The notes beneath the pieces are model-generated. The model was not told the origin of the DNA and ran no database searches. It saw nothing but the letters and a program-made list of their open reading frames with translations. Shown here in pieces: positions 2,447 to 61,915 of a DNA stretch of 64,000 nt; positions within the stretch are counted from its first letter, which is position 1, and each line of letters opens with the position of its first letter. The position numbers and the translations under genes were made by a program. The DNA comes from Hirundichthys speculiger (Eukaryota; Chordata; Actinopteri; Beloniformes; Exocoetidae). Where the stretch lies: contig JAGFBZ010000342.1 of the NCBI GenBank assembly GCA_018398805.1, positions 1,262,001-1,326,000 on the forward strand, read 5' to 3'.

Positions 2447-3619
2447 TGTCAACGTGCTTGTTTGCTTTTGCCTGGGTAAGATTCAACTTGGCAGGACCGG
2501 TGTGTTCTCATGGCCAGAAAGATGCTTTTTTTTTTTTTTAAGACAGTTGGTTCACCTGCACACAAGTATAATATATAGAGCTCCTTCAGTGGTGGAGGGG
2601 GGGAAAAAAACCCAGATGGAGAGTAATTGTAACAAAAAAAGAGGAGCGCCGAGAGCAAACGCCGTAGAAACACACACAGCATGAACATGACCGATTCTGC
2701 GGAGGGAGAAAGAACACAACCTCTTCTTAGCTCCAGCAATACATCACATTTATACGGGCAGAGGAGGCATTTGTGTGTCCTCAAGGACCCGAATAAGTAG
2801 AAGCGAGCGGGGAGAGAGAGAGCAGCGGAGAGCGAGTGAAAGAAATAAGTTACGGAGATAGAGAGAAAGAGGACAACGATGACAGCTGGCTGGGCACTTT
2901 GTGCATCTGCCAGGGGTGACTCGTGGAGCCATAATGAAAATGCAAGGCGAGATCAGGATCACTGTGGGAAGGGCCTCCATCCATCACAGGACTCCCATTG
3001 AGGAGAGACAGCCTCAATGATAACAGGAAATGTGGCTATTTGCAATCTTGGATGGAGCAATTTTACAGCGCTGCAGTTTAACTAATATCGGTTCTGACTG
3101 TATGTTAATACGTTCAAGCTCGATTTATGTTCTCCAAACGATGACCCGCTGCCATTTCTCACGGCCGATGTATCTTTATTAGAACAAAGAGCTTTTTATT
3201 TCTGCGCCTTGGTTCCCTCAGAGTGCACCTTTACCTCTGCTAATGAGCCTCTAACGCAAAGCGATGTGGCAGGTAGGAAAGCGAGGAACGGACCTAAAAC
3301 ATTACAGCTCGGGGAGGTGACATCCAAGAAAATATACGCTGATTCGGTCGGCCGTGCTGCCGGCCGCCGTGACACGGGGCCGTTTCTCATAAAAAGAGAC
3401 GGCGCAGTGACTGTGCGGGATTACGTCCCGAGCTTTCGGCGCACCTAAACAACACAAAACTAGATGTTATCCATGTCCCCCCCCCCGAATGAAATTTACT
3501 GTGTGATTAAAGTGAGGGATGTTCACCACCTGAAATCTTCATGGGAGCGGTTTGTCATCCAGAGGTTTTTTTTTTTTTTTATTTTATTATACGTACAGTA
3601 GCACCTGAGCGACACGCAC
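2447..3619. other. SND1 intron between hAT C copy 1 and the SND1 exon
   Basis: This is intronic sequence with homopolymer runs (T-run about 2526-2539, C-run at 3477-3486, T-run about 3567-3580). No gene or bounded repeat was seen. The SND1 donor site lies at its right edge. Confidence 0.6.
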
Positions 3620-3808
3620 CTTCTCTTTCCTCTGTCGGCACGGCTCCTCCGCCGACACCAGGGTTTTGTAGTACGGGCTGCGCTCCGCCGTGAAGTGGAC
3701 TTTGGACAGGGCGTTCTCGACCAGCGCCACGGACAGATTCACGCCCTCGATGTGCAGCCAGCCGATGAAGTTCCCGGCTTTGTCCATGCTCTCCACTTCG
3801 ACTTCCAC
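3620..3808 (-). CDS. snd1: SND1 (Tudor-SN) internal exon, 189 bp, 63 codons
   Basis: This is one internal exon of SND1, a cytoplasmic and nuclear RNA-binding protein with repeated staphylococcal-nuclease-like domains and a Tudor domain, involved in RISC function, splicing and transcriptional co-activation. Read on the minus strand it is open throughout. It contains [27 protein letters not shown] and YYKTL, which match vertebrate SND1 just after the REVEVEVE segment, in the region of the fourth nuclease-like domain. The exon is bounded by an acceptor with a pyrimidine tract ending TTGTGCTTCAG (AG at 3810-3809) and a donor G|GTGCGT (3619-3614). Both boundaries are phase 0. A local change is [12 protein letters not shown] where mammals have SAEEAAKQKKEK. 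No other SND1 exon was found, so the neighbouring exons must lie outside the window on both sides. LRRC4 sits in the upstream intron on the opposite strand. Confidence 0.93.
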
Positions 3809-3862
3809 CTGAAGCACAAATGGTAAAAAAAAGAAGATGAGTTAAGTTAATGTGGTTAACGA

Positions 3863-24169: not shown

Positions 24170-24800
24170 TATTTCAGCCTTGATCTTACCCTTGTTACCC
24201 TGTTAGCCTCTATGCTAATGGACACCATAAACTGTTAGCGTTTGCCAGCTTAATTGCTAACAAACAAAAACCCTTGATATCCAATTTTATTTGACAAATC
24301 CTCAATTATGACTAATTAACAATGTTAGCCTTAAGCATGTGTTAGCTGTTAGCATATGTTAGCCAAGATAACAGACAATTAGCAGCTGCTTAACTAAATT
24401 TATTTCACATGTCCTCAGTCACCAACTAATTTGTGATGTGTGAGACCTCAGCATGTGTTAGTCGTTAGCATCTGTTAGCATCCACTAGCTGCACTACAGA
24501 CAGACAGAACAGCAAGACATGTACAATAAAGTTACTCATCTTCAATCGGTGGCTAATTTATACCATATCCCTCAACTTCTTTGTGTGAGATGATGTGTGA
24601 GACATTAGCATGTGTTAGCCGTTAGCATATGTTAGCATCCACTAGCTGCACTACAGACAGACAAAGAAGAGCAAGACATGTACAATCAAGTTACTCATCT
24701 TCAATCAGTGGCTAATTTACACCATATCCCTCAACTTCTTTTAGCAGTTAGCATCTGTTAGCTGTTAGCATATGTTAGCTGCAATGCTAGCTAAAAAGAA
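24170..24800. repeat. TTAGC-rich minisatellite with a tandem duplication of about 156 bp
   Basis: Many copies of GTTAGCATATGTTAGC-type words occur. Within it, about 24434-24590 and 24591-24742 are two diverged tandem copies of one unit containing CACTAGCTGCACTACAGACA and CTCATCTTCAATC. Confidence 0.7.
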
Positions 24801-38679: not shown

Positions 38680-38712
38680 ATGATGCTGAATTATGAACGT
38701 GCCACATCATGA
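38680..38712 (+). CDS. 10-codon upstream ORF overlapping the LRRC4 start codon
   Basis: ATG at 38680 opens [10 protein letters not shown] and stops at TGA 38710-38712, which overlaps the LRRC4 ATG (38709-38711) as ATGA. If the predicted splice acceptor is right, these are the first bases of exon 2. Such an arrangement could dampen LRRC4 translation or require reinitiation. Function is inferred only. Confidence 0.4.
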
Positions 38713-41539
38713 GTCTCCTGGGGCGGGTAGCTGTGCATCGTGCCAGGAAAGCCGCCCTGCTCTGTGTATTCTTCCTCATGGCACGAGCGTGGAGCAGCGC
38801 CTCCCTGGCCTTGGCGGGGGCGGCGGTGTCTCAAGGACCCCAGGGCTGTCCGCCACAGTGCTCCTGCAGTAGCCAGCAGGGGAAAGTGGTGTGCACCCGG
38901 AGGGGCCTGACCCGCGTGCCCCCGGGAATCCCCGCCAACACGCGGCACCTCAATCTCATGGAAAACGCCATCGAGGCGGTGCAGGCTGACTCGTTCCGCC
39001 ATCTGCACCACCTTGAGGTGCTCCAGCTTGGGCGAAATGCCATACGGCAGATTGAGGTGGGCGCGTTCAACGGACTGACCAGTCTCAACACGTTGGAGCT
39101 GTTTGACAACAGGTTGACGGTGGTGCCCAGTGGGGCCTTCGAGTACCTGTCCAAACTGAGGGAACTGTGGCTGAGGAACAACCCCATCGAGAGCATTCCC
39201 TCCTATGCCTTCAACCGGGTGCCCTCGCTGATGCGACTGGACTTAGGGGAGTTGAGGAAACTGGAGTACATCTCAGAAGGAGCTTTTGAGGGCCTCCAAA
39301 ACCTCAAGTACCTCAACCTGGGAATGTGCAACGTGAGGGGCGACATGCCAAACCTGAGCCCCCTAAAGGGCCTGGAGGAGCTGGAGATCTCGGAAAACCT
39401 GTTCCCGGTGATAAAGCCGGGCTCCTTCAAAGGCCTGCGCTCTCTGAAAAAACTATGGGTGATGAACTCACAAATCACAGTAATCGAACGTAATGCTTTC
39501 GATGACCTTTCTTCGCTGGTGGAGCTTAACCTGGCCCATAATAATCTGAGCGCTGTGCCACATGACCTGTTTTCTCCGCTGAAGTACCTGGTGGAGCTCC
39601 ACCTCCACCATAACCCTTGGAACTGTGGCTGCGAGGCTGTGTGGTTAGCACGCTGGCTAAGAGAGTACATCCCTACCAATTCAACCTGCTGCGGACGCTG
39701 TCATTCCCCTGCCACCATGAGAGGACGACAGCTAGTTGAGGTGGACCAAGGCGAGGGGGCTGCGGTCCAGTGCTCTGCACCTTTCATCGCCGATGCACCG
39801 CGGGACTTGAACATCTCTGCGGGGAGAGTGGCCGAGCTCCGGTGCCGCACCGCCCCGATGTCTTCGGTGCGCTGGCTTCTACCCAATGGGACCGTCCTGA
39901 CACATGCCTCTGGTCACCCTAGAATATCGGTCCTCAACGACGGCACTCTCAACTTCTCAAACGTCCTAGCGGCGGACACGGGAACCTATACCTGCATGGT
40001 GTCCAACGCAGCGGGGAACTCTAATGCCTCGGCCTACCTCAACGTGAGTGCAGCTGAGCTCAACACGTCCAACTTGAGTTACTTCACCACAGTGACTGTG
40101 GTGCTCGTGGGCACGACGACTGAAATGCCCAAAGCTAAGACGACCACGACGACAGCTGCTGGCGTTGCTGTAGGCGGGGGAGTAGGCATAGGGACGACAA
40201 CTACAACGGCCTCTCCGTCCGTCTTTCAGCCAGTTTTATCTCAACGCCGACTGTGCTCCTGCAAAACACCGACAGTCCAGCGAGCGCCGCTAAGCCATCT
40301 GTTTTGCCAGGGGTCCGAGGTGCCACAGGCAAGCCAGGCAAGCCCGGCCCAAGCCTGGACGAAGTGATGAAGACCACTAAGATCATCATAGGCTGCTTCG
40401 TGGCAGTGACACTGATGGCCGCGGTCATGCTTATTGCCTTCTACAAACTCAGAAAGCGCCACCAGCAGAGGAGCACGGTTGCGGCAGCCCGTACAGTAGA
40501 GATCATCCAGGTGGACGAGGAAGACCTTCCACCACCGGCGTCTGCGGCCCAAGAGTCGTCTTACGCATTGCCTGAAATCAGAGACCACAACAGCATACAC
40601 AAACTGGACTTTATTAGCCACAAGACTGACTACAGCTTCCACAAACCCAAGGCTGAATACAAAACCCAACCTGATTTCACCCTGCACAAGCCCAAGGCTG
40701 AATATACAACCTACAAGCCAAATATGGACTACAGCAGCCACAAATCCATCCCAGACTGCAACACACACAAGTCAACTCCTGATTTTAGCCTTCACAGACC
40801 AAAGCTCGACTGCAGCCCGTTTAGACAGGAATACATCCCTCAGAAACCTAAATCAGAATACAGCCCGTTTAAACCAGACTTTGGTACCCACCCGAAGGTT
40901 AAAACAGACTATAGCCCCTTCAAACCAGACTACAGCACCCATCCTAGGCAGAGAGCCGAGTTCAGCCCGTTCAAACGAGACTACAGCACCCAACCGAAAC
41001 CGAAACACGATTACAGCCCGCTGAAATCCGAATACAACACACAGCATAAACCTAAAGCTGAATACAGTCCATTCAAACATGACTTCGGCACTCACCCGAG
41101 ACCTAAACCTGACTACAGCCCGTTCAAGCCCGACTACAGCACTCAGCCTAAACACAAAATGGACTACAGCGCCCAGAGACAGAAAACAGACATTGCCTAC
41201 AAGACCAAGGACCATTACACCCCCCTTAAGACTGCGCCCGACTACAATGCCTTCAAGACCGACTTCAGCCCCCACAAAGTGGATTACAGCGCCTTTAAGT
41301 CCGACTTCAGCCCGCACACGCAGAAACCCAAGCTCGACTACAGTCCTCATAAGATGGACTACAGCACCCTGAAGCCCAAATACAACACCTACAAACCGAC
41401 CGGCCACGGCGCCAAATGGACAGAGAACAACGTCGGGAACTCTCTGCCTCGAACCCTCCCCAGTGCCGTCACGGCAATGGCCGAGCCCTTTGTCATAAAG
41501 ACTCACACCAAGGAGAAGGTGCAGGAAACTCAGATTTAA
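38709..41539 (+). CDS. lrrc4: LRRC4 / netrin-G ligand 2, with a one-base frame break and an expanded cytoplasmic tail
   Basis: A postsynaptic adhesion protein that binds netrin-G2 and anchors PSD-95. Frame 1 (38709 to about 40237) gives the signal peptide (1 to about 41), LRRNT cysteines (CPPQCSCSS, 47-53), about nine LRRs to residue 300, an LRRCT (NPWNCGC...CCGRCH, 303-332), a C2-type Ig domain (ELRCR 376-380, TYTCMV 427-431) and [14 protein letters not shown], all typical of LRRC4 rather than LRRC4B or LRRC4C. Frame 2 (about 40238-41539) gives the transmembrane helix [40 protein letters not shown], the tandem-repeat tail, [11 protein letters not shown] and the PDZ ligand ETQI. A one-base deletion near 40237 (GTTTTATC) explains the break, because the flanks then align without gaps to mammalian QPAYTTSTTVLIQ. 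The product is about 943 residues against 653 in human. The start agrees with the mammalian N-terminus. The break may be a sequencing error. Confidence 0.95.
40583..41400 (+). repeat. lrrc4: Tandem-repeat coding array in the LRRC4 cytoplasmic tail
   Basis: About 272 codons consist of some 33 units of 7-10 residues, each ending D/E followed by Y, F or C and continuing S/T/N-x-x-K. Examples are [27 protein letters not shown] and SAFKSDF. In the centre two units pair into a 17-residue (51-bp) period, [20 protein letters not shown]. DNA copies are diverged, so the array is not recent, yet the frame is open throughout. It directly precedes the conserved YNTYKP of the LRRC4 tail. Confidence 0.9.
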
Positions 41540-61342: not shown

Positions 61343-61769
61343 GTTGGCAGCAGGGTTATAATAGTTTTGGATTTTCCATTAGTTTTAGTTTTTATTTAGT
61401 TTTTAGTTTAGTTTTTCAAATTCAGTTAGTTTTAATTCATTTTTAGAGCAGTTTTGCTAGTTTTTATTAGTTTTTGTTTTGAAATATTTAGTTTTAGTTT
61501 AGTTTTTATTAGTTTCAGTGTTATTTTTAGTTTTATTTTGTAAATTAGGGTTGTAATTTTGGTTCGAGTGAAGCACTGAACTTTTTGAAGGCTATCGAAT
61601 CACATAGTCGTGTTTACATTCCGGTCTCAATAAACATATTTATCAATTGCATCTTCTCTCTTGTGGTGTTCCTGCGTATTTACTGACCAGCAGCTATCTG
61701 GTCTCCATGGAAACAGTCCATTATAGTTGCTGTTTTCTCCCGTTCCTTCCCAACGCTGACTGGCCTGCA

Positions 61770-61915
61770 GCTGCAGCTTCTCTTTCCAGGGGGCTAGCTT
61801 AGGCTAGCTTATCCAGCTAGTCTTGGTTAGCCTAAACTAGCCCCCTGCAGCTGTAGCTTCTCTTTCCAGGGGGCTAGCTTAGGCTAGTTTATCCAGCTAG
61901 TCTTGGTTAGCCTTC
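61770..61915. repeat. Tandem duplication of about 80 bp, CTAGCTTAGGCTAG units
   Basis: Two consecutive copies of a GC-richer block containing CTCTTTCCAGGGGGCTAGCT and CCAGCTAGTCTTGGTTAGCC, inside the hAT element. Confidence 0.75.

Follow-up and report, generated by a model that had tools for sequence, protein, structure and literature searches.

We propose that the cytoplasmic tail of Lrrc4.1, a fish copy of the synaptic adhesion receptor LRRC4 (NGL-2), carries an array of 30 units of the form [D/E]-[Y/F]-x-x-x-[K/R], likely derived from a single YNTYKP motif and predicted to be disordered, and that this array is a multivalent docking strip that would bring receptor and partners together beneath the synaptic membrane, a reading to which we assign a probability of about one half. 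The array is present in lrrc4.1 of the sampled Clupeocephala with full-length gene models and is absent from the sampled outgroups.

The gene occupies positions 38709-41539 on the plus strand of the window, by which we mean the whole 64-kb stretch of DNA that was analyzed, and it is the lrrc4.1 copy of fish lrrc4, in agreement with the initial annotation, which had named it LRRC4 (NGL-2). The closest solved chain to the ectodomain is that of LRRC4 (3zyi, E 2.2e-236), with LRRC4B and LRRC4C ranking behind, and the ectodomain contains leucine-rich repeats, an LRRNT and one Ig domain, of which LRR_8 (1.1e-45) and I-set (1.8e-10) are above the Pfam cut-offs and LRRNT barely clears its own (26.3 vs 25.8 bits). 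These are followed by a single predicted membrane helix and a PDZ-binding C-terminus, as in LRRC4, and the reading frame is interrupted once, at 40233-40238 (Table 1). Vertebrate LRRC4 sits inside an SND1 intron on the opposite strand; an snd1 exon was found on one side of lrrc4, and tblastn with the same human probe found none beyond its other side within the 64-kb window.

Table 1. Features of the lrrc4.1 locus, in window positions.
Feature	Position	Strand	Basis
snd1 exon	3617..3835	-	tblastn, human SND1 probe, 76% identity, E 1.7e-27
ORF 1: signal region, LRRNT, leucine-rich repeats, Ig domain, stalk	38709..40367	+	Pfam, 3zyi match; shares the tail frame only to ~40235
Frame break, GTTTTATC where relatives have V-F-I (QPVFISTPTV)	40233..40240	+	Alignment with relatives
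Second frame: remaining stalk, membrane helix, entire tail, stop	40238..41539	+	ORF reading, alignment
Predicted helix: membrane span and KLRKRHQQR juxtamembrane stretch	40355..40480	+	Model residues 40-81
Tandem array, 30 anchored units, consensus [D/E]-[Y/F]-S-x-[H/F/Y]-K	40589..41380	+	Unit parsing, alignments
Six 17-residue (51-base) blocks	40856..41161	+	Tandem Repeats Finder, alignment
Terminal YNTYKP unit, the copy common to single-copy vertebrates	41381..41398	+	Sequence, tail comparison
C-terminal ETQI, the family's PDZ-binding end	41525..41536	+	Sequence; VQETQI invariant in 47 aligned rows

ORF 1 and the open reading frame of helix plus tail lie in different frames in the assembly, and the break between them, which is upstream of the array and was absent from the initial annotation, has one base fewer at 40233 than the V-F-I codons of relatives, with a T4 run at the break; the joined reading across it is 943 residues. 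Were this one-base break real, the individual or the species would be left with no membrane-anchored Lrrc4.1, and the two frames do truly differ while a second copy of the broken stretch was not found in the assembly (1.04 Gb, 3002 contigs). We regard such damage as very improbable, given that the remainder of the gene is open and conserved, that the break is a T4 run at which the residues of relatives imply one extra base, and that two of the five other LRRC4-family loci in the same assembly are also broken at conserved places, L003 between NLAHNNLT and LPHDLFTP (near 750-780) and L006 after HHGPAR (near 1630-1670). Hence the break at 40233-40238 is a probable assembly error. Counted with lrrc4.1, three of the six LRRC4-family genes of the assembly are frame-broken at conserved places, which suggests assembly indel errors.

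The array comprises 264 residues (628-891 of the joined reading) between LPEIRDH and the YNTYKP that begins at 41381, with WTEN further on. The initial annotation had described a tandem array with a 17-residue higher period in its middle, lying immediately before YNTYKP...WTEN and adding about 270 residues, and each of these points stands, although its approximately 33 units become 30 when anchored units are counted. The 30 anchors ([D/E/K][Y/F/C]) are at first mostly spaced by 7 or 9 residues (7, 9, 6, 9...), then by 7 plus 10 six times over and then mostly by 7, with one irregular stretch of 26, and residue self-identity is 0.22, 0.20, and 0.23 at lags of 17, 34, and 51, compared with 0.01-0.16 at the other lags up to 59. 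Tandem Repeats Finder reports 6.3 copies with a period of 51 and 68% matches at 40849-41170. The motif [DE][YFC][STNGI]xx[KR] occurs 21 times in the window array, whereas 2000 shuffles that preserve composition average 0.20 and never exceed 3, and these shuffles together with the array-bearing orthologues rule out chance or a repeat artefact as the source of the array. Its composition is 47 K/R, 31 D/E, 18 H, 22 Y, 17 F, 35 P, and 18 I/L/V/M/W. An AP-2 type YxxPhi motif occurs nine times in the window array against a shuffle mean of 3.16, yet it was not adopted as the unit because H (0.37) is commoner at +3 than either F (0.20) or L (0.07). Binding of human LRRC4 to AP2A1 is reported in a 2026 paper, the main text of which does not contain the word "motif" (PMC13360104). 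The ERK docking D domain, residues 499-513 of human LRRC4 (PMC5123285), was likewise left aside, as its residue numbers would place it before the tail.

A first search, from which the best 120 of 482 matches were used, was joined by a tail-restricted search with full-length size limits, and the latter returned 106 proteins, 45 of them from the first search and 61 new (P0121-P0181). All 61 new proteins are at least 774 residues long and bear the array, and together with the window they hold 8-31 motif copies (median 19; 28 in the window by that count), with 22-31 strict copies in the 22 rows P0121-P0142 and 8-22 in the 39 rows P0143-P0181. Among the matches listed, 119 of the 120 shorter rows could be counted, and 118 of these, truncated clupeocephalan models included, hold 0-3 copies, the other being a 430-residue partial with 17. 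Among the carriers identified by name are Micropterus, Pungitius, Hippocampus, Gadus, Cynoglossus, Lampris, Osmerus, Esox, Oncorhynchus, Chanos, Colossoma, Triplophysa, Cyprinus, Danio, Ictalurus, Clarias, Denticeps, Alosa, and Engraulis, which between them represent Otomorpha and Euteleosteomorpha, the two arms of Clupeocephala, and extend from herrings and carps as far as cod and percomorphs, their finer placement within these arms being that of general taxonomy. Only 0-3 copies are present in the sampled gar, bowfin, sturgeon, cartilaginous fishes, tetrapods, eels, tarpon, and bonytongues and in lrrc4.2, and a search from the tarpon tail gave no long-tailed protein outside the known set among the matches listed (best 120 of 516). 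The initial annotation had named absence of the array from close relatives as one observation that would speak against it, and orthologues across Clupeocephala carry it. The unit-level parse took in 47 of the 62 tails (15 were unmatched by the pattern, and P0161 was incompletely parsed), and all 62 were recounted under a second rule. Few strict units (8-15) are found in P0163-P0164, P0169, P0171-P0173, P0175-P0176, and P0178-P0181, of which the named ones are catfishes, and since these rows retain the array at such numbers a high copy number is not necessary everywhere. The low-count catfish-type arrays look as if they are decaying in that lineage.

While the full-length models all bear the array, 32 inspected clupeocephalan models (P0002-P0032 and P0034) are without most or all of it, and two of them (P0015 and P0018) are NCBI isoforms X2 and X3 with an identical junction, as might be expected if the array were a retained or facultative intron, spliced from part or most of the mRNA such that the common form is short-tailed like that of other vertebrates. 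The DNA of the window, on which the splice-site scan was made, contains 47 GT-AG and 103 GC-AG pairs that would delete most of the array in frame, and some of these reproduce observed joins, GT 40540 with the AG ending 41343 giving that of P0006 and P0017 and GC 40565 with the AG ending 41353 giving that of P0019. The 32 models have more than 10 different junctions, however, unlike a conserved intron, and both the commonest join (NSIH or NSIQ then NTLK, in seven models) and that of P0015 and P0018 fall on non-canonical bases in the window (AC-AG and AC-GC, respectively). Moreover, the array could hardly be conserved as protein throughout the clade unless it were translated, and we judge the intron reading to be decidedly unlikely. 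Automatic placing of the 32 junctions was weak upstream of ~40565, and those were matched by eye. Because the joins differ among species, many of the short models are probably gene-model repairs, and the scattered junctions disfavor alternative splicing as their general cause; a spliced short isoform of lrrc4.1 may nonetheless exist.

A single array locus was found in the 1.04-Gb assembly, and the five LRRC4-family paralogues found there (L002-L006) are all without the array. L002 is lrrc4.2, with one open frame of 656 residues, and L003, L004, and L005 we take, by resemblance, to be LRRC4B/LRRC4C-type paralogues. LRRC4B and LRRC4C (NGL-3 and NGL-1) have VQETQI ends as in lrrc4.1, but the copies in this genome have no array. 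Two weak matches, L007 (G000:C105:1527724-1531374) and L008 (G000:C72:1051969-1055829), are lengthy tandem repeats in which more than one frame is open, with units such as SSETAGWETSSSSLAS, and are apparently unrelated to lrrc4. The LRRC4/NGL-2 proteins of tetrapods, gar, bowfin, sturgeon, and cartilaginous fishes share with array-bearing lrrc4.1 the LRR-Ig ectodomain, the membrane helix, the juxtamembrane RSTV..RT.EII, the YNTYKP...WTEN block, and the ETQI end, and they differ in usually having one YNTYKP-like copy in a tail of ~100-160 residues after the membrane helix, whereas the 62 long rows have 8-31 copies in 192-386 residues counted from KLRK. The other fish copy, lrrc4.2, is of the same family and domain order but has no array, a doublet at most (by eye), and is serine-rich in percomorphs, pike, and salmonids.

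Tails compared by eye form a series from a single HMNYNTYKP in bowfin, sturgeon, sawfish, and chimaera, through NSTYKPGYNTYKP-like doublets in tarpon, bonytongues, and otophysan lrrc4.2 and a triplet in the second tarpon copy, to the many copies of the array. We infer from this series that the array likely grew by duplication of a YNTYKP-like unit, much as the initial annotation had suggested for an NYNTYKP-like one. Single stretches are also present in the tails of this genome's paralogues (HYNTYKTAY in L003, HYNAYKSTY in L004, and HYYKTHH in L005), and they suggest that the YNTYK motif predates the split of LRRC4, LRRC4B, and LRRC4C. One review describes the cytoplasmic domains as sharing essentially the PDZ-binding motif alone (PMC4349622).

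In a 52-row tree of the ectodomain, a single clade of 20 (SH-aLRT 100, quick method) unites the array rows and excludes the lrrc4.2 copies, eels, tarpon, bonytongues, bowfin, gar, and other rows. The sole arrayless row within the clade is a short Clupea model, the neighbors of which, Alosa and Engraulis, are array-bearing, and the window groups beside Micropterus (support 96), confirming its membership of the lrrc4.1 clade. Three groupings of the array copy relative to the eel, tarpon, bonytongue, and lrrc4.2 copies were compared, one of which was already in the best tree with a support of 32, and the two others were not rejected (p-AU 0.397 and 0.663). As the deeper order of the copies is weakly supported, an origin of the array directly after the genome duplication is something that we infer rather than observe. 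The stem of the array clade is long (0.16 changes per column vs 0.055 for clupeocephalan lrrc4.2), and hence the ectodomain may have changed fast at about the time the array arose.

The units align one to one across species, with orthologous 17-residue units of the window and seven other species 0.68-0.89 identical, compared with 0.57-0.61 for non-orthologous units and 0.58 for units within the window, and their register across the clade rules out a recent lineage-specific expansion. Constraint on the array as a whole is moderate, since in comparison with 14 euteleosts it is no more identical than the extracellular stalk (0.76 for each) and far less so than LRR plus Ig (0.94), with the C-terminus at 0.91, and against 12 Otomorpha, where 63% of columns are filled, its identity is 0.53. 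The window's six 51-base blocks give pS 0.734 and pN 0.212, and third positions take 36 of the 60 departures from consensus among the window units (random mean 20.0, maximum 33 in 5000).

Within the units, the constraint is unevenly distributed. With tree-based changes counted per column in the 59 rows that passed the filter, and like residues grouped, the ring position changes 1.60 times, the acidic -1 position 1.77 times and the basic +4 position 2.43 times, against an array mean of 3.54 and values of 7.17, 4.33, and 4.30 at the freer -2, +1, and +2 positions, and none of 10000 random draws of 30 columns was as low as the ring columns. This pattern indicates that selection keeps an acidic residue, a ring (Y/F) and a basic residue in each unit while the neighbors drift. 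The initial annotation had called the array old and selected and had named neutral change in the segment as evidence to the contrary; the single clade of register-keeping units speaks for its age, and constraint was found in both the window's own units (the third-position excess) and the proteins (the retained rings and charges).

The tyrosines, preceded by acidic residues and often with F at +3, and the S/T-P-x-K sites could together be multi-site kinase targets, in which case the array would recruit SH2 or other readers or tune charge, by analogy with neurofilament KSP repeats. The window array has 10 [ST]Px[KR] sites (shuffle mean 1.16, maximum 6 in 2000), 46 of the 47 counted rows have 4-11 (the other row is incompletely parsed), and Y accounts for 1066 of the 1530 anchor letters across aligned rows. 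We consider phosphorylation unlikely to be what the array is for, however, because the usual replacement for tyrosine is the non-phosphorylatable F, F predominates in some anchor columns (40 F vs 21 Y in the DFTLHK unit) and the S at +1 and the P/T at +2 vary comparatively freely. Changes away from Y end in F in 41 of 68 cases over the 59 rows, where BLOSUM62 would lead one to expect 0.18, such that tyrosine is not kept site by site as phosphotyrosine docking would have it; these are Fitch counts in which the root was assigned Y wherever permitted, and they are thereby biased toward changes away from Y, and the Y to F share alone is not special since ectodomain tyrosines of the same proteins give 6 of 14. 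Redundancy among the sites could still permit phosphotyrosine docking. Neurofilament KSP repeats are repeated S-P-x-K sites in a neuronal disordered tail, and the array shares the repeated S-P-x-K with them but differs in that S and P are freer and the ring is kept.

Another possibility is an entropic spacer, in which only length and disorder count, the PDZ-binding end is moved off the membrane and the motif is a relic of duplication. Predicted disorder is what such a spacer would have, and array length does differ by species (196-295 residues in 45 of the 47 parsed rows). Both the position-specific constraint within units and their preserved register would be unexpected if length alone counted, and we therefore view a pure spacer as quite unlikely, more so than phosphorylation.

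Multivalent docking is preferred over either site-by-site phosphorylation or length because the rings and the opposite charges are held and S and P are freer. A model of the tail based on 47 aligned rows has a mean pLDDT of 46.8 with the membrane helix as its sole secondary structure (mean pLDDT 81, 93, and 92 in the ten-residue blocks of residues 41-70), and the array is predicted to be disordered, as judged by low model confidence and the lack of secondary structure; a folded repeat (solenoid) was discarded as the model shows no repeat structure. The order of membrane helix and KLRKRHQQR would place the array on the cytoplasmic side. Sticker-and-spacer proteins are disordered tails with regularly spaced aromatic residues, and the array is like them in its predicted disorder, which is a matter of low model confidence, its evenly spaced and constrained Y/F units, the opposite charges that flank them and its few aliphatics (18 of 264 I/L/V/M/W). 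It is unlike them in that it sits on a single-pass synaptic adhesion receptor. In the mechanism we envisage, each ring-plus-charges unit would make a weak contact, with another copy of the unit or with the partner that the ancestral YNTYKP motif binds, and 8-31 such units would bring about clustering, adding to the single PDZ-binding end, ETQI. The C-terminus of LRRC4 is a PDZ-binding motif (PMC4349622) and the NGL family binds PSD-95 (reference title in PMC4349622; PMC6528442; PMC6550391), and hence the array would add a second contact. Binding of LRRC4 to netrin-G2 has been reported (PMC4349622). A screen of retinal ganglion cell receptors lists expression of zebrafish lrrc4.1 at 2 dpf, a statement about the gene and not the array (PMC4618557), and a zebrafish myelin paper concerns Lrrc4ba rather than lrrc4.1 (PMC6739339).

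A bolder version, which we offer tentatively and think fairly unlikely, is that after the fish genome duplication one copy of LRRC4 multiplied its lone docking motif to as many as 31 units and became a receptor with a built-in scaffold, in which ring-and-charge stickers make up a membrane-tethered strip that could nucleate a postsynaptic cluster without relying on PSD-95, with the innovation undescribed because many gene models hide the array. If this were true, it would be an undescribed synaptic innovation of Clupeocephala. The array-bearing group amounts to close to half of vertebrate species. The proteins themselves are known in that they sit in public databases as LRRC4, some at full length, and we found no published description of the array in the open-licence literature on LRRC4/NGL-2, fish lrrc4.1/lrrc4.2 and tyrosine-rich repeat tails. 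Within one major vertebrate group, to which Danio belongs, a conserved synaptic adhesion receptor has gained a tail some 2-3 times longer, and as many public fish LRRC4 models are without the array tail, constructs or knockouts based on them could miss it. If the array does cluster the receptor, it would represent a natural experiment relating motif copy number to synapse assembly, with lrrc4.2 as the arrayless control in the same animal. Elsewhere in the window there are near-perfect tandem duplications at 24434-24741 and 61764-61913, with units of 159 and 80 bases, respectively.
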